From the NCBI GenBank assembly GCA_002104985.1, contig MCGO01000007.1:496001-560000 (forward strand): a stretch of 64,000 bases of DNA, written 5' to 3'. The notes below the pieces were generated by a model. The model was not told the DNA's origin and did not search any database. It worked only from the letters and a program-made list of their open reading frames with translations. How positions within the stretch are numbered: position 1 is the first letter of the stretch; the number at the start of each line of letters is the position of its first letter. Positions 5,790 through 11,339 of the stretch are shown here, piece after piece. A program made the translations under genes and the position numbers. The stretch is from Rhizoclosmatium globosum. Its lineage: Eukaryota > Chytridiomycota > Chytridiomycetes > Chytridiales > Chytriomycetaceae.

Positions 5790-6482
5790 TCAAATCTCCC
5801 CTTCTTCCTTTTCAACAACCTCGTCCACAACCTGTTCTACATCACTCGGATCAAATAAACGATCAATATCATCACATTGCAATCTTCCATGTTTGTTACT
5901 TCCACACCTCACACACACATGTCTTCTTGGACACCGTTTCGCGCGACACCATTTCTTATCCCTCTGAAAAAACAAACAATACCTTCTTGCATCGTGTGTC
6001 AGATCTGGGCATGCATTTAACGCGTGTAAAGGTGAGAAACAGAGCAGGCACGCGTGAGTGAATTCACAGGTTGATGGACTTTTGACGCGACAGGTTGAGT
6101 TTTGGAACATGAAGCAGGGAACAGTTCTTGAGGTGGGCGGAGTTGCGGGAGTGGGTGGAGTGAGGAGAGGAGCGTGCAGAGGAAGGAGTCGTTCATGGAT
6201 TTCTATGTTGCTAGGAATCTGCACATTGGATTCGTGCGGTGTTACAAGAGATTGCATTCGTGCTCGTTGACTAATGAGATTGAATCCGTTTGACTCTTGT
6301 AGATTTGAACGTGCGTGATTTGCGGTGAGAGGTAAAGATGTGACGAAAGTGTGGTTTCTGAGGTGATGTTCAGCCTCTTCCTCCTCACGCAACCGCTTTA
6401 CTTTCTGTGTTAGATCATGGACGCTTTGCTCGAGAAAGACTAGACGCTCAAAGAGCTGTGTGGCGGCGATAGGAATTTCCAT
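5790..6482 (-). CDS. Double CCCH/CCHC zinc-module protein (local family, member 1)
   Basis: Single exon, 230 residues, ATG at 6482. The N-terminus (residues ~8-40) is a short coiled coil containing the family signature R-L-x2-L-E-x2-V. The middle is unstructured and rich in Ser, Pro and Thr. The C-terminal ~90 residues hold two copies of a compact Cys/His module: C-x3-F-x5-C..C-x-F-x-H-x-C-x2-C..H..C, then WC-x4-C-x3-H-x-C-x2-C-x4-HG-x4-C. Each copy looks like a CCCH finger merged with a CCHC knuckle. It has four relatives in this window. Function is unknown; RNA or DNA binding is a guess from the metal-binding pattern. The tail is acidic. Confidence 0.75.
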   Translation of the reverse strand: MEIPIAATQLFERLVFLEQSVHDLTQKVKRLREEEEAEHHLRNHTFVTSLPLTANHARSNLQESNGFNLISQRARMQSLVTPHESNVQIPSNIEIHERLLPLHAPLLTPPTPATPPTSRTVPCFMFQNSTCRVKSPSTCEFTHACLLCFSPLHALNACPDLTHDARRYCLFFQRDKKWCRAKRCPRRHVCVRCGSNKHGRLQCDDIDRLFDPSDVEQVVDEVVEKEEGEI

Positions 6483-7402: not shown

Positions 7403-7945
7403 TCAACGAATCAAGAATGCGGACTCAACCAACGATACACCCTCCAGTCCAGCCCACTTTGCATTAAACTTTTCAATCAATTCTACAGCAGTAGCTCCTT
7501 CTCTTGGATTGTCCCGGGTGGAATGCGCATCTTTCACAACAACAACATCCCTGATCCCAATCTTCACAGCACCCTCCGTGGTTGAATTCACACAATAGTC
7601 CGTCTGAGCACCAACTAAAACAACTCTCTTAACGCCCTTGATCCACTCAACCAACTCTGGATTACTGAATGAATCACCCTCCCACTTCTGAAACACTGGC
7701 TCAGACTCCGCCAATCGACCCAGCTGTGGCTCAATCTCCCAAAGTGGATTGTTCGGCTTATAGGCGCCTTCTGATTCGTTGTGTTGGATGAATGCGATGC
7801 GATGGTTGTGTTTGCGTGCCCACGTCAGCAACTGTAACGTGTTGCTGAGGACTTGTGGGGCGTTGTGGATTGGCGCTCCTTCTTCGACTGTTTCTTTGAA
7901 CATGACTACTTGGAGGTCGATGACGAGGAGGGCTGTGTCGGACAT
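7403..7945 (-). CDS. Isochorismatase-family cysteine hydrolase
   Basis: Single exon, 180 residues, normal family length. The catalytic triad is visible: Asp10 in LLVIDLQ, Lys87 in VFQKWEGDSF, and Cys118 in VGAQTDYCVNSTTEG; the VGAQTDYCV stretch also carries the cis-peptide motif of the fold. Members of this superfamily hydrolyse amides such as nicotinamide or isochorismate; the substrate here cannot be read from sequence, though the size and motif resemble the YcaC/nicotinamidase-like single-domain group. The start codon lies only 3 bp inside the left end of the serine-recombinase element (7949), so whatever promoter and leader it uses now lies within or beyond that insertion. Confidence 0.85.
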   Translation of the reverse strand: MSDTALLVIDLQVVMFKETVEEGAPIHNAPQVLSNTLQLLTWARKHNHRIAFIQHNESEGAYKPNNPLWEIEPQLGRLAESEPVFQKWEGDSFSNPELVEWIKGVKRVVLVGAQTDYCVNSTTEGAVKIGIRDVVVVKDAHSTRDNPREGATAVELIEKFNAKWAGLEGVSLVESAFLIR

Positions 7946-7948
7946 TTG

Positions 7949-7996
7949 TTACAGCTGTTTGCAAAACTAATGAGCCACCCCCAACTTTTGAAGGTG
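7949..7996 (+). repeat. Left terminal inverted repeat, 48 bp
   Basis: Exact reverse complement of 9454-9501. It begins TTACAGCTGTTTGC and ends in ..CTTTTGAAGGTG. A second inverted pair of 15 bp (AAAAGTGATGCAATT) follows one base further in, at 7998-8012. Its partner lies at 9394-9408. Confidence 0.95.
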
Positions 7997-8026
7997 GAAA
8001 AGTGATGCAATTAGATTTTTTGGGAA

Positions 8027-8065
8027 TCGGTGAGGTGAAATCACCGAAAAACGCTCGGTGAGGTG
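8027..8065 (+). repeat. Small direct and inverted repeats next to the left end
   Basis: The 11-mer TCGGTGAGGTG occurs at 8027-8037 and again at 8055-8065. TCACCGA at 8041-8047 is the inverse of the first seven bases, so a 7-bp hairpin is also possible. Clustered short repeats beside a recombinase gene could be binding sites for the protein, but this is inference. Confidence 0.5.
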
Positions 8066-8222
8066 GACGTTCTGGCGCCAATAGAGCCCTACAGAAGCGC
8101 AAAATAATGAGCTAGAAATCAGATTATAATTTAGAAAGATAGTTCGGAGAAAATACGAAGAATCGGACTCAGGACTAAACCTGACCAAACCACTTGTACA
8201 ACTTCAATGCATAAATCCCCGC

Positions 8223-9434
8223 TTATTTACTCGTCTTGATTTTGGTGAATGAATCGATACTCTCGATTTTGGAACGTAGTGAATCAACCGATCGATCCAA
8301 CAGACCCTGAAACTCTTTTCGAAGCACTGATTGCTTAATAAAGCTCTTAATATTGTGCGAGAAGTTGCGAATTTGTTGTGGTCGAGTTTCTATGTTCGTG
8401 ATCAGAACAGCAACGAAACAGCAAAGGAAGAAAGAGATACCTGGTTCCAATGACCGTGTTCGTTTATAAATGTTCTTTTTCACTGCATAATCGTATATGG
8501 CAGCCGGTTTTGGAACAGTTTGTTCAACCAAATAGTGTTCTTGACAAACATCAATAGCCCACAGCGCCTGGTCCATTTCCTCCTGACACGCCACCACTTT
8601 GACAGATGACTTCAATGCTCCGCGACGGTATAGTTCGCTAATATCATGACTTGTGAGTCTTGCGCCCTCAGCATTGTTACCAACAAACTTCCAACCAAAG
8701 GCAGAGACCTTGGAAACAACTTTATCATCCTGCTTACGGCTCAAAGCGCTTGCACGAGATCTTGTTTGCGAAATCTGACGTTCGAACTGAACTGCTACCG
8801 CCTGATTCAGAAATGGTATCCAACGAGCTTGCTGTGGAAATCATGGGTATTTAGGCACGACAATATTAACATCAAAATAATACCGCGATTTCAACGGGAA
8901 TAGATGGTCCAAAGAGCCTGGTCCCATGGTTGATAGCTTCCAAGAAATGCTTTCCTTTACAGACGAGGTCGTCCACCAATACTACAGTATGCAATGCGTT
9001 TCGTGAGAGTCGACACAAAGTATGAACTACTAAGCCATCAACGGAGTCGTCGTTCTCCACAGTTTCGATAGCTTGTTTTAATCCGGTACGGTCTTTGTTG
9101 GTTCCAGAAGCAATGTCACTGAAATTCACGTCATGATATTCAAAGCCAGCTTCCTCCAAACGTTCTTTTATCATTTTAACTTGCTGTGATATGGAGCTTC
9201 CGAGAGAGGTCGGGGCCGTTTGGGCCGACTGGCGCGTGTAAATAACAAAACGCAACTTCTTCGTCGTTTTTGATGGAGGATTGTCAAGCCCGGTCTTGGA
9301 TAAGGAAGCGAAAACTGATTTTATGCCGTGTATCACACACTGCCAAAGCAGCAGGATGTCACGTGCACTAAAAGCCTGCTATCTTTTACACAGAATTGCA
9401 TCACTTTTGCATTGGGAGATGAGGCTTTATTCAT
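8223..9434 (-). CDS. Serine recombinase (resolvase/invertase catalytic domain), spliced
   Basis: Four exons join in frame: 9434-9390, 9339-8884, 8831-8441 and 8389-8223, giving 352 residues; the introns are 50-52 nt with GT..AG ends. Residues ~44-155 are a serine-recombinase catalytic domain: nucleophile Ser53 in YTRQS, SSISQQ at 63-68, DIASGTNKDRTGL at ~90-102, and CRLSRN with Arg125 and Arg128. Next comes a long helix (VAVQFERQISQTRSRAS) like helix E of this family. The ~150-residue C-terminal part is charged, presumably DNA-binding and dimerising, and I cannot assign it. The catalytic domain comes first, as in resolvases, not after a MerR-type domain as in IS607. A short upstream frame starts inside the right repeat (ATG at 9480). 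Introns show it is adapted to a nuclear genome. Confidence 0.85.
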
Positions 9435-9453
9435 CTGTTTTGCATCATAATTG

Positions 9454-9501
9454 CACCTTCAAAAGTTGGGGGTGGCTCATTAGTTTTGCAAACAGCTGTA
9501 A
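9454..9501 (-). repeat. Right terminal inverted repeat, 48 bp
   Basis: Exact reverse complement of 7949-7996. On the minus strand it is upstream of the recombinase ATG (9434), so it should supply the 5' leader of that gene. It contains an ATG (9480) opening an 11-codon upstream frame. Confidence 0.95.
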
Positions 9502-9578: not shown

Positions 9579-11339
9579 TCAAACTCCAAGAAACATAACA
9601 TTCTCCATCTGTGCTGTAATGCGGTCATCGTGCATAAGAAGTCGACCCATCTCCTTATTCCCAAGCTTGTTTGCAATAGCAACTGCTGCAAACCCCTTTT
9701 CAAGCTCACGCACACTCGGGTCCTCCAAAATCAGCTTGAGAACTCTGATATTTCCACTACGAACACAATCCAGCAAAATCTCCGATCCCTTCAATTTGGG
9801 CGAAATGCGAACGTCAGATAATAACTTGCGCGATGTTTCAAAGGATCCTTCCTGAATATACTGGTAGAGCTGATTCATACTCAGTGTATTCGATTTGAAA
9901 CGCGGATTCATAAGAATGACATCCATCATTTTCCAAGAGGAAGCAACCTGAAGTGCGGCGTTGTCGTCACAATTTGGATCAATTCTCGCATCCTTCAAAA
10001 ACAATTCAACGACAGGAAAGTTTTCGGTTTCAATGGCGAACATGAAAGCCGCATGGTCATTTGCGGACGGATCCACGTTCCAGTCGGCCAAAAGTAGCTT
10101 ACAGATTTCGATATTACCAAATCGTGCTGCAAACCCGATTTCCAGGTTTCCATTCGCAGCTGGATCCACTCTTGGGTCCGCAACGAGGACGCGTACAACT
10201 TCAAGAAATCCATTTTGAATCCCTTTAATCAGTGGCAAGTTGCGTCGAGCTGATGGATCCACACTTGGGTCTGTCAGAAGCACTTCACAAATCTCGGCAA
10301 AGCCAGACTGAGCTGCAACACAAATGCACTGGTTTGCGTGATTCGCCGGATCCACGCGACCGTCTTTCAACAACCGCTTCACAATATCAGTATACCCACG
10401 ATTCACGGCCGTGTTCAACGCAGCGTTGGGAGGCGTTACACGAGGGTCTTGCAAAACCAGATCCATCATTTCCAAACGGTTGTAACGAGCCGTCCCGAAA
10501 AGCAGCTCACCAACAACAGGATTCACGCGTGGGTCTGCAAGAAGAAGCTTAAAGATACCATTGTGCCCTTGCACGATCGCCTGATGCAATGCGTCGTTCT
10601 CTTTCGCGGACGGATCCACGCGTGGATCCAACAACCACTTCTCCAATTCCTTTTCCAATCCAAACATCACCAGCGTTTTCAACAGGTTCTCCGTGCTTAA
10701 GCGGGGATCGTTAAGTAGCATCTCCATGATTTCAGAATGCCCAAATGAACACGCCGCATTAAGGGGCAAATTTGCAAACACCGACGGGTCCGTTGCAGAA
10801 TTTTCGAGACACTTGCGAACAATGCCGTCGTTACCAAGCGAGCAAGACCAGCGAAGGAGACGGTCTGAATTCATACTGCTATCGTACTTGAACTCCGTGA
10901 CCAAAGTGTCTACCAAATCCAAAGCCTGAGCTTCAGTAATACACATGCACAAGTTAATAAAATAAGATTCCTTTTGAAGAGCCTTCTCGATGGGGTTTGC
11001 TTGGATGGGGCCAGTGAGCATGTGGTGGAACATTGCGACTTGGATGTTGAAGGGGAAGTGTTTCCACTCGTCTTTGATCTTTTTGTAGCGCGTCCAGTCC
11101 CATACGTCCTTGTTCCCGGACTGCGCGATTTTGGCGGTGAGGAACGCGAGGCTGAAGTTCACGGAGCCATAGACGGATGCGGAGAAGATGTGCTTAGAGG
11201 TCAAGGCGAATTCGAGAATGGATGGGTTGAAGGGGAGCCAGAGCATGATTTCTTGGAGCTCTTCAATTGAGAGGGAGGCCAGAGTAGTGGCGGAGGTGGT
11301 CAAGGGTGGCGAGTTCAAAGGGGATGCGTTGGTTGTCAT
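9579..11339 (-). CDS. Ankyrin-repeat protein with F-box-like N-terminus
   Basis: Single exon, 586 residues, ATG at 11339. Residues ~22-70 (SIEELQEIMLWLPFNPSIL, LTSKHIFSASVYG) resemble a short F-box-like helical segment. From ~150 to ~520 there are about ten ankyrin-type repeats of ~33 residues with the recurring core 'L-L-x-D-P-R-V-D-P-S-A-x-x-N-x-x-L'. The DPRVDPSA loop is far more uniform than in generic ankyrins, which suggests internal duplication. A substrate-adaptor role would fit an F-box + ankyrin combination, but the F-box call is weak. Confidence 0.75.
   Translation of the reverse strand: MTTNASPLNSPPLTTSATTLASLSIEELQEIMLWLPFNPSILEFALTSKHIFSASVYGSVNFSLAFLTAKIAQSGNKDVWDWTRYKKIKDEWKHFPFNIQVAMFHHMLTGPIQANPIEKALQKESYFINLCMCITEAQALDLVDTLVTEFKYDSSMNSDRLLRWSCSLGNDGIVRKCLENSATDPSVFANLPLNAACSFGHSEIMEMLLNDPRLSTENLLKTLVMFGLEKELEKWLLDPRVDPSAKENDALHQAIVQGHNGIFKLLLADPRVNPVVGELLFGTARYNRLEMMDLVLQDPRVTPPNAALNTAVNRGYTDIVKRLLKDGRVDPANHANQCICVAAQSGFAEICEVLLTDPSVDPSARRNLPLIKGIQNGFLEVVRVLVADPRVDPAANGNLEIGFAARFGNIEICKLLLADWNVDPSANDHAAFMFAIETENFPVVELFLKDARIDPNCDDNAALQVASSWKMMDVILMNPRFKSNTLSMNQLYQYIQEGSFETSRKLLSDVRISPKLKGSEILLDCVRSGNIRVLKLILEDPSVRELEKGFAAVAIANKLGNKEMGRLLMHDDRITAQMENVMFLGV

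Follow-up and report, generated by a model that had tools for sequence, protein, structure and literature searches.

The 1553-bp unit bounded by 48-bp inverted repeats in the window, a 64,000-nucleotide stretch of the Rhizoclosmatium globosum genome (contig MCGO01000007.1, positions 496,001 to 560,000), is a chimera in which 1.31 kb from the right end of a larger, two-gene transposon of 6.4 kb, carrying a 5'-truncated serine recombinase gene, lies between the two ends of a MITE. The chimera very probably arose by nesting and deletion, or by the capture of filler DNA, from a parent element that was moved by a transposase and whose recombinase acted separately, on multimers or circles. Taken by itself, the window element is ordinary debris of one transposon in another. 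The parent is the better find: a transposon of eukaryotes in which a transposase-like gene is paired with a serine recombinase would bring the bacterial combination of transposase and resolvase into nuclear genomes.

A repeat search confirmed the perfect 48-bp inverted repeats at 7949-7996 (plus strand) and 9454-9501 (minus strand), and no perfect inverted pair in the window with a spacing of up to 5 kb is longer; the two that follow in length are of 16 bp. With mismatches allowed, the inverted pair measured 67 nt at 93% identity, and the perfect repeat ends at 48 bp owing to an 11-bp deletion in the right arm relative to the other MITE copies. The left MITE end comprises 65 bp (7949-8013, plus strand) identical to several other copies, and its outermost bases are a T and the duplicated target TA (7950-7951). 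It is followed by the right terminus of the parent transposon (8014-8079, minus strand; GATTTTTT... when read on the plus strand), an end also present in C151 (two copies), C135 and C17 and with no other matches in the genome. The recombinase gene, on the minus strand, consists of the last exon with the native stop codon (8223-8389), a 51-bp intron (8390-8440), the middle exon for the long helix and C-terminal region (8441-8831), a 52-bp intron (8832-8883) and the 5'-truncated catalytic exon (8884-9321), with the catalytic serine codon at 9226-9228. The junction of the transposon fragment with the MITE lies at 9322-9326, where the exact base is ambiguous by 1-2 bp, and the right arm of the MITE (9327-9501, plus strand), which has the 11-bp deletion, ends in the right perfect repeat with the TA target duplication at 9499-9500. 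The window copy is thus composed of MITE positions 1-65, foreign DNA and the equivalent of positions 477-662 of the C114 copy, MITE positions 66-476 being absent, and the left junction falls exactly on the terminus of the parent transposon.

All open reading frames of at least 120 amino acids inside 7949-9501 are recombinase exons. The minus strand matched the Resolvase domain (PF00239), with an E-value of 5.2e-14 when the genome was searched and of 2e-15 when the spliced window protein was used, and the motifs IYTRQS, SSISQQ, DIASGT..R and CRLSRN are all present, the last three of which had already been recognized as catalytic motifs. The original prediction of an intact gene of four exons and 352 residues, with the catalytic serine at residue 53, was not confirmed. 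Homology to the other copies spans three exons (9321-8884, 8831-8441 and 8389-8223; 331 codons), and the first residue of the window copy corresponds to residue 37 of the C151 model, whose start exon and about 36 residues are missing here. There is no in-frame ATG between the upstream stop codon (9379-9381) and the catalytic serine, and the first methionine of the frame lies 18 residues past that serine. A start exon spliced in from MITE sequence, which the four-exon model needs, would be compatible with the sequence, and no support for it was found. The rest of the frame, both introns and the stop codon are preserved.

Window positions 8016-9326 are 93% identical to C151, in two places, and the recombinase body in C135 and C17 is about 69% identical; MITE ends are absent from all of these copies. 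The dN/dS ratio was 0.18 for the window compared with C151 (34 synonymous and 23 non-synonymous changes in 331 codons) and 0.20 for the C151 and C135 recombinases. With C135 as a distant outgroup, the synonymous and non-synonymous changes were distributed as 14 and 12 on the window branch and 8 and 6 on the C151 branch, with 12 and 5 unassigned. These branch-wise counts suggest that most of the divergence arose under constraint, either before the truncation or with little time elapsed since.

When the left 64 bp of the unit were used as a query against the genome (56.9 Mb, 420 contigs), at least 21 matches were obtained. A two-end scan with the 48-bp end, in which 9 mismatches were allowed, covered 14 loci and detected both ends in five (C378, C375, C114, C62 and C343), one end in six and neither in three. 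Two of the six one-ended loci belong to one element in C90; its second end is degenerate, and it represents a sixth two-ended copy. The six copies are 557-679 bp long (the C90 boundary was chosen by hand), too short to contain the recombinase; the five best read TTACAG...CTGTAA, and the ends are near-identical from copy to copy. The genome search for the 48-bp end, proposed as a check on the element, thus returned MITE copies without the recombinase, and among the genome matches no other place had both the ends and the recombinase. Similarly, neither a second copy of the whole 1553-bp chimera nor a donor site was present among the genome matches.

An empty site was found on a second contig. 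The left flank in the window matches contig C375 with 95% identity over 949 bp, and this contig, taken from its sequence to be the other haplotype, lacks the element at the TTAA of GGACATTTG-TTAA-TAAATTATGG (the site reads TTAA-TAAATT). The C375 flanks are 98.0% (203 bp) and 96.8% (865 bp) identical to those in the window, and the filled site differs from the empty one by a 2-bp TA duplication within TTAA. The ends, the TA duplication and the empty site together fit a TA-inserting MITE, and on sequence grounds the ends of the unit are those of a Tc1/mariner-like MITE. No autonomous partner of this MITE was found. The candidate examined, in C334 (L068), was rejected because its two MITE-like stretches, 6 kb apart, are not paired ends; one is a MITE-like relative (5846-6211) and the other a separate palindromic repeat (about 207-865). 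The L068 gene appeared Fanzor-like by eye, but there was no Fanzor match in Pfam (one piece) or in the PDB comparison (joined pieces).

The right terminus of the parent transposon (GATTTTTTTGGGAATCGG... on the strand opposite the genes) has five genome matches, each located 3' of the recombinase gene. In C151, two 6470-bp units that are 100% identical lie head to tail (C151:15086-28029) with CAAA between them, and the pair, flanked by AGCAAAAT, has a single 8-bp target duplication in common. In C268, a related repeat has the C151 target site once and unfilled (AGCAAATT), with 81/84 aligned bases identical in a match that reaches only 18 bp past the duplicated 8 bp. A 6436-bp copy in C135 is flanked by GGAATTGG; no empty site was obtained for it, its left flank having no second genome match. 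The C17 copy, flanked by GAATTTTT, is internally deleted: its left end is reduced to 8 bp (GGGAGTAG), and 1.95 kb remain at the right end. The 8-bp target duplications at these three insertions (the C151 pair, C135 and C17) support transposase-driven insertion of the parent and speak against insertion by a serine recombinase. The left end has three genome matches (C151:15086, C151:21560 and C135:71516). Together with the five occurrences of the right end, these do not point to a large family of MITEs descended from the parent. The parent has no long terminal inverted repeats; GGTGAGGTG begins 17 bp from each end of the C135 copy and is degenerate in C151. A 14-bp inverted repeat around GAGAGATGG repeats was also seen by eye at the left end (GGAAAAATCTGTTT...AAACAGATTTTTCC), and it hardly differs between copies whose first genes are about 67% identical. 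For the C151 pair, a multimer intermediate or a product of the recombinase is conceivable, the alternatives being homologous recombination or an assembly error.

The preferred sequence of events is that the larger transposon would have landed in a MITE, which would account for a left junction placed exactly on the parental end, and that a deletion would then have taken the rest of the parent together with the middle of the MITE, or that an equivalent filler would have been captured. If anything, the MITE ends would mobilise the chimera, with the recombinase piece as cargo. The match of the left junction to the parental terminus speaks for nesting at one stage or another, while the empty site fits the arrival of a ready-made chimera as well as nesting in place. 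A variant that overlaps this explanation, and differs in the order of events only, is that the chimera was made elsewhere and arrived as a Pack-type unit by means of a TA-specific transposase acting in trans. We give this variant slightly less than an even chance: one clean TA insertion accounts for the difference between the two contigs, cut-and-paste movement leaves a single copy, as observed, and the MITE ends have hardly diverged between copies, but the genome matches include no second copy or donor site and a left junction exactly on the parental end is better explained by nesting and deletion than by random filler capture.

The main idea of the original prediction, an autonomous transposon whose long terminal inverted repeats are the substrate of the serine recombinase, is highly improbable. 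The repeats and catalytic motifs are really present and the remaining exons keep the coding frame and splice sites; however, the gene is truncated and lacks a start, its ends are shared with MITEs too short for the gene, no other genome match has both, and the recombinase copies elsewhere have quite different ends. Moreover, the TA duplication fits a DDE/D transposase and argues against a serine recombinase acting on the repeats; insertion by IS607-type serine recombinases, in the available text of PMC6188088, generates no target duplication. Instead of a new eukaryotic transposon defined by its 48-bp repeats, the recombinase is a fragment of a larger element with different ends and its own transposase-like gene. 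The second suggestion made originally, a Tc1-like nonautonomous unit that captured a recombinase, came close to the arrangement found, TA-inserting MITE ends around foreign recombinase DNA, and the suggestion of something new among eukaryotic transposons may still hold for the parent element, though not for the window unit.

A splice model of the parent, scored on conservation between C151 and C135, gave a first gene of about 1000 amino acids followed by the recombinase on the same strand, and no conserved third gene was seen between or outside the two models. In C151 and C135 a small first exon encodes the start of the recombinase model, MK(V/A)K(N/S)K, and the C135 model is identical to a public R. 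globosum protein, P0001 (BCR33DRAFT_219198). The first gene corresponds to the 1051-residue P0003 (BCR33DRAFT_730087) of the same species, which keeps two stretches removed by the splice model, and a partial protein of R. hyalinum, P0002, is 94% identical over 76% of the C135 first-gene model. Comparison of P0003 with Pfam, NCBIfam and PDB sequences gave nothing but DUF6729 below the cut-off (E 1.9e-4) and no match to a DDE profile. A Tn3-type DDE transposase was likewise absent from the Pfam matches, with E-value limits of 1 and 10, and the large protein had no match to the KDZ profile, a model of which is presumably contained in Pfam. An AlphaFold model of P0003 with P0002 had a pLDDT of 30 and was unusable. 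By eye, P0003 has D/D/E motifs (D395, D463 and E618) and, close to its C-terminus, a CxxC motif resembling a zinc knuckle. Its position and size, the 8-bp duplications and these motifs are the grounds on which the large protein is regarded as a putative DDE transposase. The recombinase start codon is preceded, at a distance of about 190 bp, by a conserved dyad (TGACGGTGAGAGAACCGTCA in C135), which is a candidate res site only.

The genome has 10 Resolvase places, five of which adjoin transposase-like genes (C151 twice, C135, C143 and C105); the others are the window fragment, the deleted C17 copy and relics in C118, C279 and C46, the C118 and C279 contigs being 98% identical over 9.8 kb. The genes in C143 and C105 constitute a second family, in which the recombinase is about 30% identical to that of the first over some 118 residues and is again downstream of a transposase-like gene on the same strand. 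A protein of Rhizoclosmatium sp. JEL0117 (P0004) agrees with the C143 recombinase model at 261/264 aligned residues. Profile comparison of the transposase-like models of the two families was not significant (E 0.04, probability 1.3%), so their kinship is suggested by the gene order and the motifs seen by eye. The left end and target duplication of the C143 and C105 elements were not found in the stretch examined. The C46 relic (L067 4539-5450) has stop codons, is about 31% identical to the family and lies between stretches that, by eye, resemble one host gene. DUF6729 was matched at no fewer than eight loci elsewhere (at least those in C157, C400, C68, C79, C301, C409, C41 and C92), four of them with near-equal score and extent, and these eight are perhaps further transposons of the parent's kind without a serine recombinase.

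Searches for related recombinases detected them in Rhizoclosmatium and Obelidium (P0005 and P0006 of O. mucronatum), all falling into one group, and the nearest non-chytrid sequences are mostly bacterial large serine recombinases. The PDB sequence matches at E<=0.01 were exclusively to large serine recombinases, as were the best Foldseek matches of the recombinase model; this group includes the TP901-1 integrase, TnpX and the serine integrases. Unlike them, the chytrid protein is compact (310-381 residues), has its own conserved C-terminal motif and fungal introns, and gave no match to PF07508 or the zinc ribbon PF13408. Some integrase structure alignments reached model residues 302-367 with an rmsd of 6.5 or worse, and VIA-align aligned no chain to residues 1-51 of P0001, which says nothing on the fold there. 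No N-terminal MerR-type or HTH DNA-binding domain was matched, the Resolvase match starting at residue 30-31 in P0005 and P0006, and the IS607 profile was among the weak NCBIfam matches. In viral contigs there was a single weak match, L073, with 26% identity across residues 125-229 of the query.

MITEs of the Tc1/mariner type and Pack-type transposons are short, insert at TA, have inverted ends and capture gene fragments. The window chimera is like them in its length, its insertion at TTAA, its inverted ends, the existence of gene-free copies and its captured fragment, but differs in that the cargo is a piece of another transposon's recombinase gene. Members of the Tn3 family combine a transposase with a serine resolvase and have terminal inverted repeats of about 38 bp and a 5-bp duplication. 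The parent shares with them a large, putative transposase gene and a serine recombinase gene on one strand, but has spliced eukaryotic genes, 8-bp duplications, no long inverted ends and a recombinase that is nearer the large serine recombinases.

In eukaryotes, IS607-like serine recombinases are described in Fanzor2 elements in the available part of PMC3627910, and the part of PMC2715888 at hand reports six such genes in Saccharomyces kluyveri, with an N-terminal DNA-binding domain and a dN/dS near 0.2. IS607 and Fanzor are also covered in the accessible portion of PMC10711439, and the serine recombinases in that of PMC6431247 belong to bacterial elements. Like the Fanzor2 and yeast genes, the parent recombinase resides in a eukaryotic nuclear genome, and like the yeast genes it has a dN/dS near 0.2; in contrast to IS607 elements, the parent has target duplications, and neither an N-terminal HTH domain nor a TnpB/Fanzor gene was seen in it. 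The fungal KDZ/Zisupton transposons, in the available text of PMC12730594, produce 8-bp duplications and have TET/JBP accessory genes by the transposase; "recombinase" and "resolvase" each occur 0 times in that text. The parent has the same duplication length and an accessory gene beside the transposase-like gene, but this gene encodes a serine recombinase rather than TET/JBP. No description of a eukaryotic transposon with both a transposase and a serine recombinase was found in open-licence PMC titles and abstract openings, and "chytrid" and "serine recombinase" did not occur together in the open-licence PMC literature.

The large DDE-like transposase would cut and join the parent, giving the 8-bp duplications, and the serine recombinase would work apart from it, in a site-specific way, on multimers of the element or on circles that have been excised. 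By analogy with the Tn3 resolvase, it would resolve or integrate multimers, or build head-to-tail arrays like that in C151, a role to which the gene pairing, the constraint, the occurrence of the C151 pair in one target site with a 4-bp joint and the conserved dyad all point. A reversal of these parts, with integration carried out by the recombinase and the large protein merely assisting, is improbable. The location of the recombinase gene at one end of the parent and its similarity to large serine recombinases, which include integrases and transposon recombinases, would agree with such a role, but the 8-bp duplications at three sites are against it. Rather less improbable, though still doubtful, is that the recombinase merely travels as a passenger and contributes nothing to the life cycle of the element: the eight or more DUF6729 matches are on contigs that have none of the 10 Resolvase places, so that related genes without a recombinase probably exist. 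Against a passenger are the same gene order in two very divergent families, the constraint on the protein and the conserved dyad block upstream of its gene.

We tentatively propose a class of transposons in the Chytriomycetaceae with a Tn3-like logic, in which a DDE-type transposase inserts the element with 8-bp duplications and a fungal-only, spliced serine recombinase, acting at an internal site, resolves dimers or integrates circles into resident copies to form head-to-tail arrays. The question raised is whether multimers or circles arise in the life of these elements and have to be resolved at specific sites. The parent could also provide a compact serine recombinase already adapted to the eukaryotic nucleus.

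The chimeric element starts 3 bp upstream of the start codon of an isochorismatase-family gene (7403-7945, minus strand), an open 180-aa frame that matches PF00857 with an E-value of 2.8e-27; contig C375 lacks the element. Judging by its placement in the sequence, the insertion may displace the promoter or 5' UTR of this gene. A long ankyrin-repeat protein gene (9579-11339, minus strand) also adjoins the insertion.
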